From positions 186,001 through 250,000 of the forward strand of contig NZ_AUCB01000003.1 in the NCBI RefSeq assembly GCF_000429545.1: DNA of 64,000 nt, in the 5' to 3' direction. Of this stretch, positions 3,652 through 56,729 are shown piece after piece. The notes under the pieces are model-generated. The model saw only the letters and a program-made list of their open reading frames with translations. It was not told the DNA's origin and did not search any database. The stretch comes from Arenibacter certesii DSM 19833. GTDB lineage: Bacteria > Bacteroidota > Bacteroidia > Flavobacteriales > Flavobacteriaceae. The stretch's first letter is position 1, and each line of letters opens with the position of its first letter. Both the position numbers and the translations under genes were made by a program.

Positions 3652-6204
3652 TTATCCACATTTAGACGATCCACAATCTTTACAGGTAAGGCATCCTTCC
3701 TGATAAATTAGATTGGTAGAATTACATCCGTCACATTTTTGACCCTTAGCCTCTGTACCATCTTCTACGTAGCGTTTTAGAGCTCTAGCCACACCATTCT
3801 TCCAAGTGTTTATAGATTCGCTATCCAGTTGTAAACTATTGATTAAGTCTACCACCTTTTCTATTGGCATGCCATGGCGTAAGGTGCTCGAAATTAGTTT
3901 GGCATAATTCCAGTACTCAGGGTTAAACTTATGGCTTAGCCCCTCAATAGTGGTTTTGTAACCTCTTTTGTTTTTGTATTGAAAATCGTATCGGGAAGAG
4001 CCATCTTCATTTCTGCTCTTTAGAATTACTCCTCTGTTTACCCAACGCGGAATTAAGATACCGTCCTCATCATCGGATATTCCAGTAAAGATTTCATACG
4101 GCTTTCCGTCAATTAACCCAATAAAGGCAATCCACTTTTCTTTATTGTTCTGAAGTCGTACCACATCTGCCTCCAGAACCAAGGGGCGTTTTATTGGGAA
4201 TGGGGTAAGAGACTCATCATTTTCTTCTTTTTTGGGCTCGTTGGAAATCAGTACTCCAGATCTGGAACCATCACGGTACACAGTAACCCCTTTACAGCCT
4301 GCTTTCCATGCCTCTAAATACAATTTGCCTACCAAGTCTTCGGTAGCATCCTGTGGAAGGTTAATGGTAACGCTAATAGAGTGGTCTACCCATTTTTGCA
4401 CTGCCCCCTGTAAACGTACCTTGCTCAACCAATCAACATCATTTGAGGTAGCTTTATAGTAAGGAGATTTTTTTACAATTTTATTTAGTTCTTCTTGACT
4501 GTAATTTTTTTCTGTGTCTATACCGTTAACAGACATCCATTGCTTAAACCTGTGATGGAATACAGTGTATTCTTCCCATGAATCCCCAACCTCGTCTACA
4601 AAGTCTATACGGACATCCTTATCGTTAGGGTTAACCTTACGTCTACGCTTATAAACAGGTAAAAATACAGGTTCTATTCCAGAGGTGGTCTGGGTCATAA
4701 GGCTAGTTGTTCCAGTTGGGGCAATGGTTAACAGAGCAATATTCCTACGGCCGTACTCTAACATTTCATAATACAGCTTTTCATCTGCTTGCTTTAGGCG
4801 AAGGATAAACGGATTATCCTTTTCGCGATCCGCATCAAATATTCCAAAGGCACCTCTCTCTTTAGCGGTATGCACAGAAGCCCTATAAGCTTCTATAGCA
4901 ATAGTTTTGTGAACTTCAATGGAGAAGTTGTTGGCTTCTTCGCTGCCATAGCGCATTCCCAGTGCTGCAAGCATATCTCCTTCAGCGGTGATTCCAATTC
5001 CGGTTCTTCTGCCTTCTTCTGCTTTTTGTTTAATTTTTTCCCAAAGTCTAAGCTCTACCGCTTTAGTCTCGTCCAATTCTGGGTCAGATTTGATCTTGTC
5101 TAAAATAACATTGATCTTCTCTAGCTCCAAGTCGATTATATCGTCCATAATTCGCTGTGCAGCAGAAATATGTTGTTTAAATAAATCAAAATTGAATTTG
5201 GCCTTGTCGGTAAATGGCTGTTCTACATAAGAGAAAAGATTAATGGCCAAAAGTCGGCAGGAATCATAAGGGCATAAAGGAATCTCCCCACATGGATTTG
5301 TAGATACCGTTTGATAGCCAAGATCTGCATAGCAATCTGGAACGGATTCTTTAATAATAGTGTCCCAGAACAAAATACCGGGTTCTGCAGACTGCCAGGC
5401 GTTGTGAACAATCTTGCTCCACAATTTGTTGGCGTCTATAGTTTTGGATATTTTAGGATTTGCACTTTGGATTGGGAATTTTTGGGTATAAGGTTGTCCT
5501 GTTTCTACCGATCTCATGAAATCATCATCCATTCTAACGGAAACATTGGCTCCTGTAACCTTTCCCTGCTCCATTTTGGCGTCTATAAAGTCCTCGGCAT
5601 CTGGATGGTTTATAGATACAGAAAGCATTAATGCTCCTCTTCTCCCGTCCTGTGCAACTTCCCTAGTAGTGTTAGAGTAGCGCTCCATAAATGGAACTAG
5701 TCCGGTAGAGGTGAGTGCAGAGTTTTTTACGGCAGAACCTTTAGGACGTATGTGAGAAAGATCGTGACCTACTCCACCACGTCTCTTCATCAGTTGTACT
5801 TGCTCCTGATCTATTTTTAAAATACCTCCATAAGAATCGGATACGCCTTCATTACCAATAACAAAACAGTTGGAAAGCGAGGCAATTTGGAATGGATTTC
5901 CGATACCTGCCATAGGACTACCTTGGGGTACTATATATTTAAAGTCTTTAATTAGGTCAAATACCTGATCCTCATTTAGTGGATTAGGGTATTTTTTTTC
6001 TACTCTCGCAATTTCCTGAGCAATACGACGGTGCATATCGTCTGGAGTAAGTTCATAAATGTTGCCTTCAGAATCCTTTAAGGCGTATTTATTTACCCAG
6101 ACCCTTGCAGCCAGGTCGTCTCCTTTAAAGTAAATTAGGGAGGCATTGAATGCTTCTTCCTGAGTGTAGGTCTTTTTGGTGTCTTGGGCTAATTTTGTTG
6201 GCAT
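3652..6204 (-). CDS. nrdJ: Adenosylcobalamin-dependent (class II) ribonucleoside-diphosphate reductase
   Basis: An 850-residue class II ribonucleotide reductase, which makes deoxyribonucleotides using a B12-generated thiyl radical. The thiyl-radical site is NPCGE at 303-307 (C305, with N303 and E307). The redox cysteine pair is C113 (SNCF) and C316 (SCRLLAINL). Further family motifs are RRTGIGITAEGD (399-410), APTGTTSLMTQTTSGIEP (495-512) and GVTVYRDGS (639-647). Residues about 675-800 form the extra C-terminal domain typical of NrdJ, and the tail has a CxxC...CxxC...C cluster (824-849), probably the swinging redox or zinc tail. Class II enzymes work with or without oxygen, so the cell needs cobalamin. 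No NrdA/NrdB is in the window. Confidence 0.97.
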   Translation of the reverse strand: MPTKLAQDTKKTYTQEEAFNASLIYFKGDDLAARVWVNKYALKDSEGNIYELTPDDMHRRIAQEIARVEKKYPNPLNEDQVFDLIKDFKYIVPQGSPMAGIGNPFQIASLSNCFVIGNEGVSDSYGGILKIDQEQVQLMKRRGGVGHDLSHIRPKGSAVKNSALTSTGLVPFMERYSNTTREVAQDGRRGALMLSVSINHPDAEDFIDAKMEQGKVTGANVSVRMDDDFMRSVETGQPYTQKFPIQSANPKISKTIDANKLWSKIVHNAWQSAEPGILFWDTIIKESVPDCYADLGYQTVSTNPCGEIPLCPYDSCRLLAINLFSYVEQPFTDKAKFNFDLFKQHISAAQRIMDDIIDLELEKINVILDKIKSDPELDETKAVELRLWEKIKQKAEEGRRTGIGITAEGDMLAALGMRYGSEEANNFSIEVHKTIAIEAYRASVHTAKERGAFGIFDADREKDNPFILRLKQADEKLYYEMLEYGRRNIALLTIAPTGTTSLMTQTTSGIEPVFLPVYKRRRKVNPNDKDVRIDFVDEVGDSWEEYTVFHHRFKQWMSVNGIDTEKNYSQEELNKIVKKSPYYKATSNDVDWLSKVRLQGAVQKWVDHSISVTINLPQDATEDLVGKLYLEAWKAGCKGVTVYRDGSRSGVLISNEPKKEENDESLTPFPIKRPLVLEADVVRLQNNKEKWIAFIGLIDGKPYEIFTGISDDEDGILIPRWVNRGVILKSRNEDGSSRYDFQYKNKRGYKTTIEGLSHKFNPEYWNYAKLISSTLRHGMPIEKVVDLINSLQLDSESINTWKNGVARALKRYVEDGTEAKGQKCDGCNSTNLIYQEGCLTCKDCGSSKCG

Positions 6205-53310: not shown

Positions 53311-53468
53311 CGATTCTACAATATAGGGTTGATATTACTGCTCATCTTAGGGCAATGTGGTAAAGGGTTCAGGAAATTTTAGGGGACCCCGTTTTGGAGA
53401 TAGTGTGTGTCCCATTTCTCCGAAACATATTTCATTTGATGCAATTCAACTTAAAAAGCAAAAATATT

Positions 53469-54608
53469 ATGGCTACTGATAAAACCGCTTTAAACCTGCC
53501 AAAGGAAAACCCGGAAGCAGAAGATTTTCTTCCAATTTTAGGAACAGATTATATTGAATTATACGTGGGTAATGCCAAACAGGCAGCTTATTATTATATG
53601 TCCGCTTGGGGCTTTCAACCATTGGCCTATTCTGGATTGGAAACAGGGCTTAAGGATAGGGCTTCTTACGTTTTAAAACAGGATAAAATTAGATTGGTGC
53701 TAACCTCTCCCCTAAAATCTGGAGGTGATATTAATAGACATATAGAGGCTCATGGAGATGGAGTAAAAGTAATTGCTTTGTGGGTAGACGATGCTAGAAA
53801 AAGCTACTCTGAAACGGTTAGTAGAGGGGCGGTAAGCTATATGGAACCTAAGGTGATAAAAGATGTGGAGGGGGAGGTAGTACTATCCGGTATACAAACT
53901 TATGGGGAGACCGTGCATACTTTTGTAGAACGCAAAAATTACAAAGGCGCATTTATGCCTGGTTATAGGCGTTGGGATCCATTTTATAAGGCGCCAGATG
54001 TAGGTCTAAAATATATAGATCACATTGTGGGAAATGTTGGGTGGAATGAAATGAACAAATGGTGTAAATTTTATGCTCATGTTATGGGATTTGCACAATT
54101 AGTATCTTTTGATGATAAGGATATTTCTACAGAATATACGGCACTTATGAGTAAAGTGATGAGCAACGGTAACGGACGCATTAAATTCCCAATTAACGAA
54201 CCTGCATCGGGGAGAAAAAAATCGCAAATTGAAGAATTTATAAATTTTTATAATGGATCGGGGGTACAGCATATAGCATTAGCTACGGATAATATTATAG
54301 AGACCGTGGGGTCCTTAAAAGCAAGGGGAGTAGAGTTTTTAACCATTCCGCCCAGTTATTATGAGAATGTTTTAGACCGGGTAGGGAAAATTGATGAAGA
54401 TTTGGCACCCTTAAGCGAGTTGGGAATATTAATAGATAGAGATGACGAGGGTTATCTTTTACAGATATTTACAAAGCCAATATTGGACAGGCCAACCATG
54501 TTCATAGAAATAATTCAGAGAAAGGGTGCCAAATCATTTGGAAAGGGAAATTTCAAGGCATTATTTGAGGCAATCGAAAGAGAGCAGGAGTCGCGTGGGA
54601 CCCTTTGA
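53469..54608 (+). CDS. hpd: 4-hydroxyphenylpyruvate dioxygenase
   Basis: A 379-residue Fe(II) enzyme that turns 4-hydroxyphenylpyruvate into homogentisate in tyrosine breakdown. Iron ligands are H185 (IDHIVGN), H268 (VQHIAL) and E347 (MFIEIIQRKG). The C-terminal FGKGNFKALFEAIE is the family signature. I use the ATG at 53469; the frame is open upstream to a TTG at 53394 but those 25 residues have no similarity to the family. Homogentisate dioxygenase is often adjacent in Bacteroidota but is not here. Downstream lies a candidate small RNA and then the kynA operon. Confidence 0.96.
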   Translation: MATDKTALNLPKENPEAEDFLPILGTDYIELYVGNAKQAAYYYMSAWGFQPLAYSGLETGLKDRASYVLKQDKIRLVLTSPLKSGGDINRHIEAHGDGVKVIALWVDDARKSYSETVSRGAVSYMEPKVIKDVEGEVVLSGIQTYGETVHTFVERKNYKGAFMPGYRRWDPFYKAPDVGLKYIDHIVGNVGWNEMNKWCKFYAHVMGFAQLVSFDDKDISTEYTALMSKVMSNGNGRIKFPINEPASGRKKSQIEEFINFYNGSGVQHIALATDNIIETVGSLKARGVEFLTIPPSYYENVLDRVGKIDEDLAPLSELGILIDRDDEGYLLQIFTKPILDRPTMFIEIIQRKGAKSFGKGNFKALFEAIEREQESRGTL

Positions 54609-54717
54609 AAAACATGTTTTTCTTAACTTTTTCCCAATTTTATATTTCAAATTATTAAATAATGTTAAGGCGAGCGTTAAAGTAAGTTAAATCCTATTTC
54701 AGAACATATTCTTGTAT

Positions 54718-54725
54718 TAAATTTG
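54718..54725 (+). promoter_or_regulatory. -7 promoter box for the candidate small RNA
   Basis: TAAATTTG is an exact TAnnTTTG box, 93 nt after the HPPD start of the gap's centre and just ahead of the first hairpin at 54731. No clear TTG is seen at the -33 position. Confidence 0.5.
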
Positions 54726-54830
54726 TTCTCGCAAGGGGTGGTTCCCTTGCAACTTTAAGTATTGGTTTTTCATAATTTAAAGTTTGGTTGGTTATTTAGG
54801 AAAGCCCAGTTTTACGACTGGGCTTTTTTT
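54726..54830 (+). ncRNA. Candidate small structured RNA (three hairpins, own promoter and terminator)
   Basis: Between HPPD and the DUF3108 gene. It starts near 54728 if transcription follows the TAAATTTG box. Hairpin 1 is GCAAGGG (54731-54737) with CCCTTGC (54744-54750). Hairpin 2 is AACTTTAA (54751-54758) with TTAAAGTT (54777-54784). Hairpin 3 is the 10-bp terminator at 54801-54826 with a T run. There is no reading frame. The predicted transcript is about 100 nt. It could instead be a leftover of the HPPD 3' UTR. Its identity is unknown; Rfam families of Flavobacteria such as Flavo-1 should be compared. Confidence 0.5.
54801..54830 (+). terminator. Strong terminator after HPPD and the candidate small RNA
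   Basis: A perfect 10-bp stem (AAAGCCCAGT 54801-54810, ACTGGGCTTT 54817-54826), 6-nt loop and T run to 54830. Confidence 0.92.
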
Positions 54831-54922
54831 ATGGACAATACTTTGGAATAATTCTTGTTTAGGTAAGTAAAGAATAAAGCCGCAATTCAAAGGTTTTTAT
54901 TAATTTTACAACATTGAAGAAT

Positions 54923-55753
54923 ATGAAAAAGATAACTGTTATCCTATTATTAATATTTGGGCTTTCCTTAAATTCCCAAAGTCATCCTTCTCAGGATTGG
55001 GCTACCGATCCAATCTCAGAGGCAAAGAAGGACAAAGTATCTGCATTTGATCCTGGGGAGTGGCTAAAATTCCGCATCCACTACGGTTTTTTAAATGCGA
55101 GCTATGCCACCCTACACGTTACATCAAAGGATTTTAATGGGATTCCCGTTTACCACGTTGTTGGTAATGGACAAACTACAGGCTTTGCAAGTATCTTTTT
55201 TAAGGTAGATGATACCTATGAAAGTTATTTTGATAAGCGAGATGGCAGGCCCTATAAATTTATTCGAAAAATAAATGAAGGCGGTTATACCAAGGATGTT
55301 GAGGTTAACTTTGATTATGACGCTAACATTGCGGTTTTAAAAGACAAAAAGAACGATAAAAATTATAAGTTTACTATCCAAGAGGGTATCCAAGACTTGG
55401 TTTCCGCTTTTTATTATATTCGGAATACGTACGACTTTGAGGATTTAATAGTTGGGGAGAGTATTAAGCTGGATGTCCTATATGATGATGATGGGGTATT
55501 TAACTTTAAGCTTAAGTATTTAGGCAAAGAAGTTTTGAAAACCAAATACGGTAAAGTTGAGAGTTTAAAGTTTAGACCCTATGTTCAATCGGGAAGAGTC
55601 TTTAAGGAGCAGGAGAGCTTAACGCTATGGGTTTCAAATGACGATAATAAGATTCCGGTACGTATTCAGGCAGATTTAAGGGTTGGAGCTATTAAAGCAG
55701 ATCTAGACGGGTACAATGGACTGAAACATCAATTTAAAATAATAATGGATTAA
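54923..55753 (+). CDS. DUF3108 secreted protein
   Basis: A 276-residue protein with a signal peptide (MKKITVILLLIFGLSLNSQ). I use the ATG at 54923, not the TTG three codons upstream. The mature part is the DUF3108 domain: an early AFDPGEWLKFRIHYGFLNASYATLHV, then YKFTIQEGIQDLVSAFYYIRNTYDF and a late RPYVQSGRVFKEQESLTLWVSNDDNKIPVRIQADL. These beta-rich, probably envelope proteins have no known activity. It is first in a tight operon: kynA begins 1 nt after its stop. Confidence 0.9.
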   Translation: MKKITVILLLIFGLSLNSQSHPSQDWATDPISEAKKDKVSAFDPGEWLKFRIHYGFLNASYATLHVTSKDFNGIPVYHVVGNGQTTGFASIFFKVDDTYESYFDKRDGRPYKFIRKINEGGYTKDVEVNFDYDANIAVLKDKKNDKNYKFTIQEGIQDLVSAFYYIRNTYDFEDLIVGESIKLDVLYDDDGVFNFKLKYLGKEVLKTKYGKVESLKFRPYVQSGRVFKEQESLTLWVSNDDNKIPVRIQADLRVGAIKADLDGYNGLKHQFKIIMD

Positions 55754-55754
55754 T

Positions 55755-56729
55755 ATGAATAAAGATCATATAGATTCCCAGATTTCCAAATTAGAAGAAA
55801 AGTACAAGGATTCCGGGCAAGATCTTAGTTCTTATTTAGATGGTTTGCTGTATCAGCGGTACTTAACTTATTGGGACTATATTAATTTGGATACGCTGCT
55901 TAGTATTCAAGTGCCTAGGACGCATTTCCCTGACGAGGAAATATTTATAATGTACCACCAGATTACCGAGCTTTATTTCAAACTTATTCTGCACGAACAA
56001 AAACAATTAGTAGATGATAAATCCCAAGATGTGGATTTTTTCATTGAAAAGGCCAATCGTATAAATAGCTATTATCAGGTGTTGATTTCCTCTTTCAGCG
56101 TCATGATTAAGGGGATGCAACGGGAACAATTTATGCAATATAGAATGGCGTTATTGCCTGCTAGTGGATTCCAGTCTGCTCAGTACAGGATGATAGAACT
56201 CTACGCGACCTCCATGGAGAATTTGGTTCATTATTCCGAACGTGATAATTTTTCGTCCCATGATAGCATTGAGGAACTCTATGAGAATATCTATTGGAAA
56301 AAAGGTGCTACGGACAAAACCACAGGAGAAAAAACCCTTACTCTAAAGCAATTTGAATACCGTTATACCCCAAGATTGATTAGGATAGCCAAACAAGTGC
56401 AAAACAATACAATTTATAATAAATACCAAAAGCTCCCACAAGAAGCCAAGGATAATAAAACCTTAATTGATGCGTTAAAAGCATTGGATATAAATGCGAA
56501 TGTAAATTGGCCTTTAATGCATATGGGGTCTGCTTATCGCTATCTTACCAAAGATGATACCCAAATTGAAGCTACTGGAGGGACTAATTGGAAGCAATAT
56601 TTGCCTCCAAGTTTCCAGAAAGTGATATTTTTTCCAGAATTATATTCAAAACAAGAGTTAAATAATTGGGGAAAACAATGGGTAGACCATATCTTTAACC
56701 CAGAAAAAGTAAAAAGTAACGATGAGTAA
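55755..56729 (+). CDS. kynA: Tryptophan 2,3-dioxygenase
   Basis: A 324-residue haem enzyme that opens tryptophan to N-formylkynurenine, the first step of the kynurenine pathway. The active-site H68 lies in MYHQITELYFKLILHE (66-81), the substrate-carboxylate arginine is probably R130 (QYRMALLPASGFQSAQYR), and the proximal haem histidine is H256 (MHMGSAYRYL). It is somewhat longer than proteobacterial forms (about 280-300), with the extra in 180-200 and 268-283. It sits inside an operon with DUF3108, an M23 lipoprotein and pgi. Kynurenine formamidase is not in the window. Confidence 0.96.
   Translation: MNKDHIDSQISKLEEKYKDSGQDLSSYLDGLLYQRYLTYWDYINLDTLLSIQVPRTHFPDEEIFIMYHQITELYFKLILHEQKQLVDDKSQDVDFFIEKANRINSYYQVLISSFSVMIKGMQREQFMQYRMALLPASGFQSAQYRMIELYATSMENLVHYSERDNFSSHDSIEELYENIYWKKGATDKTTGEKTLTLKQFEYRYTPRLIRIAKQVQNNTIYNKYQKLPQEAKDNKTLIDALKALDINANVNWPLMHMGSAYRYLTKDDTQIEATGGTNWKQYLPPSFQKVIFFPELYSKQELNNWGKQWVDHIFNPEKVKSNDE

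Follow-up and report, generated by a model that had tools for sequence, protein, structure and literature searches.

Gene context and promoter region

The window, i.e. the whole stretch of 64 kb that was analysed, carries on its plus strand an ORF for HPPD at positions 53394 to 54608. Its product matched Pfam Glyoxalase above the cut-off, and the HPPD N-terminal domain scored just below its own (24.1 versus 27 bits). The next ORF on the same strand encodes a DUF3108 protein (54914 to 55753, Pfam), and is followed by kynA, the gene of a tryptophan 2,3-dioxygenase (55755 to 56729, Pfam Trp_dioxygenase), and by an M23 peptidase gene. An earlier note on this DNA had placed a candidate small RNA between HPPD and kynA. 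HPPD is indeed the upstream neighbour, but the DUF3108 gene lies directly downstream and kynA is only the second gene. The candidate small RNA, of ~101 nt, was delimited to 54730 to 54830 on the plus strand on the basis of its fold (z -5.8), its conservation and synteny.

An exact TAnnTTTG box, i.e. the -7 box of the Bacteroidota housekeeping sigma factor, is present upstream of the candidate (TAAATTTG, 54718 to 54725, plus strand), 110 bp past the HPPD stop at 54608; both the box and this distance had been given before and were confirmed. Such boxes are located at -12 to -5 in the available text of PMC9723704, and the transcription start is predicted near 54730 (plus strand). TAnnTTTG was found in 94 of 107 homologues, counted anywhere within the ~100 nt searched and with no background count, and GTTAAA in all 107 distinct upstream regions, at a median of 42-43 nt before the -7 box. 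In the window, three direct repeats of GTTAA (54664 to 54691, plus strand) start at 54664, 54676 and 54686, i.e. 12 and 10 nt apart, and GTTAAA corresponds to the middle one. This spacing is typical of response-regulator sites, and the repeats are probably an activator site upstream of the promoter. The sequence GTTAAAGTNNGTTAAA had one exact match in the genome of Arenibacter certesii and three matches at no more than one mismatch, the exact one included, versus 12 for a backwards control. Since only one exact place and two one-mismatch places exist, the regulator cannot be named from shared sites. An intermediate group of homologues (L085, L086, L089, L090 and L092) showed a conserved ATGCTTGCATA-like sequence in the interval from GTTAAA to the -7 box, reminiscent of an added second regulator. 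Taken on its own, the TAnnTTTG box would count as weak evidence for a small RNA; the feature stands above chance because of its structure and conservation.

Structure, conservation and genomic place

The fold of 54726 to 54833 had an energy of -40.0 kcal/mol, versus -20.7 ± 3.3 kcal/mol for 200 shuffled sequences (z -5.8), none of which was as good. All three inverted repeats described earlier fold into stems, but the first two comprise 8 and 10 bp, not 7 and 8. Stem-loop 1 (54731 to 54750, plus strand), which covaries, pairs 54731-54738 with 54743-54750 around the loop UGGU. Stem-loop 2 (54751 to 54784, plus strand) pairs 54751-54760 with 54775-54784, and its apical portion bears the anti-start sequence UUUUUCAU. 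The linker UGGUUGGUUAUUU (54785 to 54797, plus strand) is predicted to be single-stranded, with an unpaired probability of 0.86-0.99 over 54786-54797, and is the likely first contact with a target. It is followed by an intrinsic terminator with seven T residues (54799 to 54830, plus strand; stem 54804-54811/54816-54823, extended by A-U pairs), which was absent from the output of a simple terminator scan. A ACAATACTTTGGAATAATTCTTGTTTA-like stretch past the terminator, at 54836 to 54870, is kept in many of the aligned genera and is probably the promoter of the DUF3108-kynA operon.

The alignment used for the covariance model consisted of 42 of the 88 candidate sequences (<93% alike), L053, L091, L093 and L104 being excluded. 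Pairs were counted in 26 of these 42 rows, after exclusion of 16 with gapped or shifted stems. Standard pairs made up 97.8% of the pair cells in the 26 sequences, and both sides had changed in 44 cells, versus 10.5 ± 3.4 in shuffles, none of 500 of which reached 44; sliding the stem partners destroyed the covariation signal. Compensatory changes, proposed earlier as a check on the first two stems, were observed in stem 1 (both sides changed in 4 of 8 pairs, 97.6% of cells paired) and likewise in the terminator (4 of 7 pairs, 100% of cells paired). Stem 2 showed none among the 26 closer relatives; 8 of its 10 pairs were invariant, and the outermost pair was open in 9 of 26 sequences. A hand comparison revealed a remade stem 2 in the large genus g128, taken from its size to be Flavobacterium, with UAUAAA/UUUAUA replacing CUUUAA/UUAAAG, i.e. 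with both sides changed. The remade stem was part of the minimum-energy fold of 18 of 19 g128 sequences, L306 being the exception, and was absent in the related L309-L310.

As had been noted, the segment lacks a reading frame; no complete plus-strand ORF of >27 aa was present in any of the 42 homologues. A scan with Rfam 15, which had been suggested with Flavo-1 and 6S in mind, yielded no family at its gathering score in the whole 64-kb window. Weak hits such as rteR (RF04181, 19.8 versus 72 bits) and MicC (RF00121, 26.2 versus 90 bits) were far below gathering, and what these and the other weak Rfam hits share with the candidate is an intrinsic terminator and an A/U-rich body. With its promoter-like elements, conserved structure, intrinsic terminator and no ORF, the segment 54730 to 54830 appears to be a stand-alone small RNA with intrinsic termination, and the earlier reading as such is supported.

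The gap was matched in 18 of 18 Arenibacter genomes, that of A. certesii included, and in 86 of 299 genomes of the family sample at E <= 1e-4 (A. certesii included), 64 of which matched at E < 1e-8. One weak family match, L106 (G132), was dropped as unconfirmed by nhmmer. The best matches in other genera showed 89-95% identity over ~100-130 nt. Among the matches listed, the exact core pattern was found in Maribacter, Zobellia, Cellulophaga, Allomuricauda, Croceitalea, Robiginitalea, Kordia, Galbibacter, Capnocytophaga and Arenibacter, as well as in other records. With the covariance model built from the 42 sequences, a match was obtained in 55 of 395 genomes from the order, A. certesii included, 54 of them from the same family. 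At class level, 15 of 395 genomes matched, nine in the family and six outside it at 35-39 bits. Thirty-four of the order-level matches were in g128, one per genome, and the genus carries a diverged orthologue at the same chromosomal place. Twenty family genomes without a match under strict filters were also inspected: the RNA was present beside DUF3108 in two (L390 and L392), and no RNA was found in the fetched locus of the other 18 with filters off. A short gap or a plain terminator followed HPPD instead of the RNA in L388, L394, L395 and L400, among others. The RNA is widespread in Flavobacteriaceae, but not universal.

The flanks of 117 places, duplicates and the window itself (L038) included and with only 1.5 kb of flank for L010-L067, showed HPPD upstream together with DUF3108 downstream at 78 places, DUF3108 alone at 24, HPPD alone at five and neither at 10. 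The last comprised eight weak model matches elsewhere and the copies L103 and L105 from genome G040, whose genus we infer to be Capnocytophaga. Six of the 13 long-flank places with DUF3108 only (L071, L075, L081, L083, L084 and L102) carried directly upstream a gene that was read from its sequence as patatin-like. Since this gene replaces HPPD there, the RNA is independent of HPPD.

These data bear on whether the element acts in cis, i.e. as the terminator of an HPPD 3' UTR or, for the DUF3108-kynA operon, as its leader or attenuator. The constant neighbourhood and the intrinsic terminator upstream of DUF3108 would suit such a role. A 3' UTR of HPPD is, however, unlikely because the distance of the conserved promoter elements hardly varies and the RNA persists without HPPD upstream, in line with the earlier remark that it is not merely an HPPD terminator. 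The RNA has conserved promoter elements of its own and is kept where the patatin-like gene stands in for HPPD; a conserved promoter-like stretch, TTTGGAA..TTG, was read by eye 3' of the terminator; and the 18 family genomes without the RNA at the DUF3108 locus have retained DUF3108. A cis element would moreover have no need of the 37-nt antisense to SusC starts described below. The HPPD 3' UTR and the kynA leader were rejected on the promoter elements, the synteny and the losses, and a cis role is regarded as very improbable.

The genome of A. certesii gave one full match and one model match to the RNA. Tandem copies ~300 nt apart were seen in G241 (L072:4006-4118 and 4325-4438) and G196 (L098), and Kordia jejudonensis (L145) showed two tandem matches of the core only. 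The two copies of G040 (L103 and L105) lie far apart and without the usual neighbours, and the two matches of G233 are near contig ends. The model further yielded eight extra matches (L311-L318), i.e. in four family genomes with no other match (G062, G142, G191 and G537) and in G368 from outside the family, and as second matches in G181, G193 and G245; as they lack the usual neighbours, they were not counted as orthologues. Some of these eight share TTGGTTGGTTA and a terminator. In L316, L317 and L318, a GTTGGTT-type sequence was present just 5' of a strong terminator in genomes that also have the main RNA; these are possibly further sRNAs with a related seed.

Complementarity to SusC start regions

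The segment from 54764 to 54800 (plus strand), GGUUUUUCAUAAUUUAAAGUUUGGUUGGUUAUUUAGG, is the reverse complement of a start region of the SusC/RagA importer type, TAACCAACCAAACTTTAAATT-ATG-AAAA. This complementarity, overlooked in the earlier note, is the most telling feature of the locus. The reverse complement of this antisense seed reads CCTAAATAACCAACCAAACTTTAAATT-ATG-AAAAACC, i.e. leader and start codon, and the CAU opposite AUG is at 54771-54773 (plus strand). The seed was nearly invariant in the 26 closer sequences. The link to aromatic amino-acid breakdown that had been hinted at is unsupported, and the sequence points to SusC mRNAs instead. As the reverse strand reads TAACCAACCAAACTTTAAATT-ATG-AAA, the likeness might come from the start region of a tiny opposite-strand gene; the short ATG frame, however, runs into a stop codon before the end of the RNA in 31 of the 42 homologues, its sequence varies, and the stem covariation and the T run fit the plus strand. 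Such a gene was rejected on the frame stops and is scarcely credible.

Fourteen weak genome matches were read, seven of which were antisense to gene starts. Five of these were SusC starts, three confirmed by profile (L002, L003 and L008) and two assigned by reading (L030 and L036); the others belonged to a solute symporter (L034, by reading) and a small protein (L037). The remaining seven showed no convincing starts, or matched the terminator or promoter.

Pairing was then computed for the SusC genes of the A. certesii genome. Of 53 genes above the TIGR04056 cut-off, 52 were used, one being too near a contig end, and the controls were 255 other genes from a sampled 615 kb, mostly around SusC loci. 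The first ATG of the longest ORF served as the gene start, which is wrong for some genes, e.g. the SusC gene of L003, whose start is likely downstream. One SusC gene of this genome is in two pieces with in-frame stops (G000:C8:98795-101945). RNAduplex energies with the 47-nt seed region, which ignore internal structure, had a median of -21.35 kcal/mol for the 52 SusC genes versus -14.9 kcal/mol for the 255 others (AUC 0.838, p 7e-15). None of 150 dinucleotide-shuffled seeds reached the real seed (AUC mean 0.57, maximum 0.75), and the reversed seed gave an AUC of 0.66. Shuffling of the SusC UTRs moved the median to -16.3 kcal/mol, with 0 of 100 reaching the real value. The AUC was 0.83 for the UTR without the start codon, 0.43 with the region -120 to -54 as target and 0.81 for SusC against 113 secreted-like other genes. 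The exact CAU:AUG register was seen in 40 of 52 SusC genes versus 128 of 255 others (p 0.0003). Of the 40 strongest pairings, 26 were with SusC genes. The SusC gene at G000:C1:300520, as the best target, forms 34 base pairs with the RNA, and the match L030, from A. latericius, is to nearly the same site. The SusD-like gene directly after this SusC gene, and other secreted-protein genes, were also among the strongest pairings. Composition alone was shown by computation to be insufficient for the match to SusC starts, and the FopS seed gave no such match in this genome (consensus seed, AUC 0.55, SusC not separated).

Foreign seeds from flavobacteria separated SusC in the A. certesii genome as well (AUC 0.71 for the g128 seed and 0.84 for the Capnocytophaga seed). 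In the g128 genome G512 (30 SusC genes, 155 others), the AUC was 0.75 with the g128 seed and 0.82 with the window's seed, and the FopS seed separated SusC weakly (AUC 0.65, p 0.004). Separation was weak in G040 (22 SusC genes) with its own seed (AUC 0.68, p 0.003), and the window's seed failed there (AUC 0.58, p 0.10). The seeds are interchangeable among flavobacteria. A further RNA-carrying genome, G644, was sampled with 10 SusC genes. The CAU:AUG register was not significantly enriched in SusC genes of the three other genomes (21 of 30 versus 84 of 155, 4 of 10 versus 4 of 7 and 14 of 22 versus 87 of 152).

Four family genomes in which no copy was detected (G150, G161, G171 and G236) were represented by their 30 best-scoring SusC loci. 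With the window's seed, the median for these 30 leaders was -16.1 kcal/mol versus -21.35 kcal/mol in the A. certesii genome (p 1e-6), and UTR-only pairing was near shuffle level (z -1.1 versus -4.3). The full seeds nevertheless beat shuffles in these genomes with all three seeds (z -2.9, -4.9 and -5.2; UTR-only -1.1, -3.5 and -2.3), and with the g128 seed they matched the A. certesii genome (z -4.9 versus -5.0 for the full seed, -3.5 versus -3.3 for UTR only). As complementarity persists without a detected copy, part of it is explained by the general composition of start sites or by an older leader that is shared. The motif ACCAA, the complement of UUGGU, was present in 17 of 52, 17 of 30, 6 of 10 and 5 of 22 SusC UTRs of the four genomes with the RNA and in none of the 30 from the four genomes without a detected copy; it is one of three motifs, taken after four related patterns and picked once the seed complement was known. 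It occurred in 25 of 255 and 9 of 155 non-SusC genes, and in 8 of 29 when only the best-scoring A. certesii SusC genes were counted. Related motifs were found in the 30 SusC genes without the RNA, i.e. AAC[CT]AA[CT] in six and AACCA in two.

The RNA might also be a decoy or mimic that acts on translation initiation in general, resembling the antisense of the average start site in flavobacteria, in which case SusC would stand out only through its unusually A/C-rich, G-poor leaders. For the other genes as a set too, just one of the 150 shuffled seeds did as well as the real seed, the reversed seed still separated SusC, and one seed was as strong in genomes without a detected copy as in the A. 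certesii genome. However, the SusC signal was lost in composition-preserving shuffles of either the seed or the target UTRs, and UTR-only pairing of the window's seed was near shuffle level where no copy was detected. On balance, a decoy appears improbable.

Possible action on SusC synthesis and relation to known RNAs

In Bacteroides thetaiotaomicron, the sRNA FopS (RF04319) represses SusC translation at the start codon, as evidenced by EMSA, in-line probing and compensatory mutations, and it is conserved within Bacteroidaceae (PMC11697453, available text). A seed antisense to the SusC start-codon region, as in FopS, was found here by computation. The order of parts is also alike: UUUUUCAU is followed by a UTR-matching stretch ending in GGUUA and by an intrinsic terminator, in register over model positions 1-71 of 71. 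The FopS covariance model nevertheless gave 18.9 bits, with its gathering score at 56 (E 2 and 0.42). Common descent with FopS is not claimed, since these features would be expected of every terminator-bearing antisense to ATGAAAAA. FopS is described with a single-stranded 5' part and a terminator only, and with 12-15 copies in Bacteroides (PMC11697453), whereas the RNA of the window has two extra hairpins, a partly folded seed and one copy in its genome; two copies do occur in the relatives G241, G196 and G040. A search for PF00076 (RRM_1), the domain of the FopS partner RbpB (PMC11697453), gave no match at E <= 0.001 in the A. certesii genome and was positive in a Bacteroides control, a result that concerns protein presence only and one genome. 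GibS of B. thetaiotaomicron is likewise a start-site antisense sRNA in Bacteroidota, induced via a promoter motif of its own, but has two seeds and other targets, i.e. a GH13 enzyme mRNA and BT_3893 (PMC11697453).

From its sequence, the RNA is probably a trans-acting antisense sRNA that blocks SusC translation, FopS-like in action without being a FopS member, and it makes a strong candidate for an antisense RNA that regulates SusC translation widely in flavobacteria. A sigma-A-type promoter of its own (54718-54725) would drive its transcription, probably with an activator bound to the GTTAA repeats, and the transcript would fold into two hairpins and the terminator. The exposed linker UGGUUGGUUAUUU would first pair with AACCAA-type sequences in the 5' UTR of SusC/RagA mRNAs, GGUUGGUU lying opposite the AACCAA of the SusC leader. 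Stem 2 would have to open after this contact, and pairing would then spread via its 3' arm to UUUUUCAU, which would cover AUGAAAAA. Bacteroidota mRNAs are described as being without Shine-Dalgarno sequences, initiation depending on mRNA structure and on bases such as A at -3 (PMC6847099, available text); an RNA that covers leader and start codon should block initiation. The ribosome would be barred from the start site, and many SusC importers would be made less, together, so that nutrient uptake could be throttled by a single RNA. That the RNA is transcribed, that it represses rather than activates, in which order it pairs and what signal induces it are points that we infer.

A different role would follow if the RNA were the orthologue of Rfp18 of Flavobacterium psychrophilum, mainly supporting secreted proteases and adhesins by pairing near their starts, with SusC as one part of a broad target set. 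Rfp18, a structured sRNA conserved in Flavobacterium, has several predicted targets, and two metalloprotease mRNAs fall short of their normal level without it (PMC9723704). An orthologue of the window's RNA is found at the same place in g128, taken as Flavobacterium, and SusD-like and other secreted-protein genes are among the strongest pairings. According to the same source, Rfp18 is conserved outside its species and strongly structured, a single region pairs with several predicted targets, and the fpp1 pairing lies in the 107-bp gap before the gene (PMC9723704). Its pairing region is, however, the third stem-loop (PMC9723704), whereas the third stem here is the terminator, and secreted-like non-SusC genes pair much worse than SusC (AUC 0.81). 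Rfp18 was tested on metalloprotease targets, and the mRNA of two of these drops when its gene is deleted (PMC9723704); the two RNAs were compared by description only. The adjacency to HPPD and DUF3108 and the TTTCATAATTTATAGTTTTTTGGTT-like stretch are the marks by which Rfp18 can be compared with the RNA. Rfp18, which may be the orthologue, sustains two of its target mRNAs instead of lowering them (PMC9723704), and this speaks against SusC blocking. The Rfp18-like role is considered rather unlikely, and Rfp18 may be a partial precedent.

A literature search, outside which most subscription journals lay, showed among the papers listed none on a family-wide flavobacterial RNA aimed at SusC, and none on the present RNA or its likeness to SusC starts. 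A bolder form of the SusC-blocking reading, put forward tentatively and with some doubt, is that a mostly single-copy RNA, kept at one chromosomal place in much of the Flavobacteriaceae, acts as a master brake on the translation of many SusC importers at once, of separate origin from FopS and without RbpB, and that the SusC leaders are adapted to it, ACCAA being rare or absent where the RNA is lacking. Flavobacteriaceae rank among the foremost degraders of polysaccharides from algae and plants, and the control of their SusC-based loci is usually described as locus by locus and transcriptional. If SusC blocking is true, one RNA matched to many SusC starts would constitute a global post-transcriptional layer and, together with FopS, would suggest an origin or retention of antisense control of SusC starts in two distant branches of the phylum.
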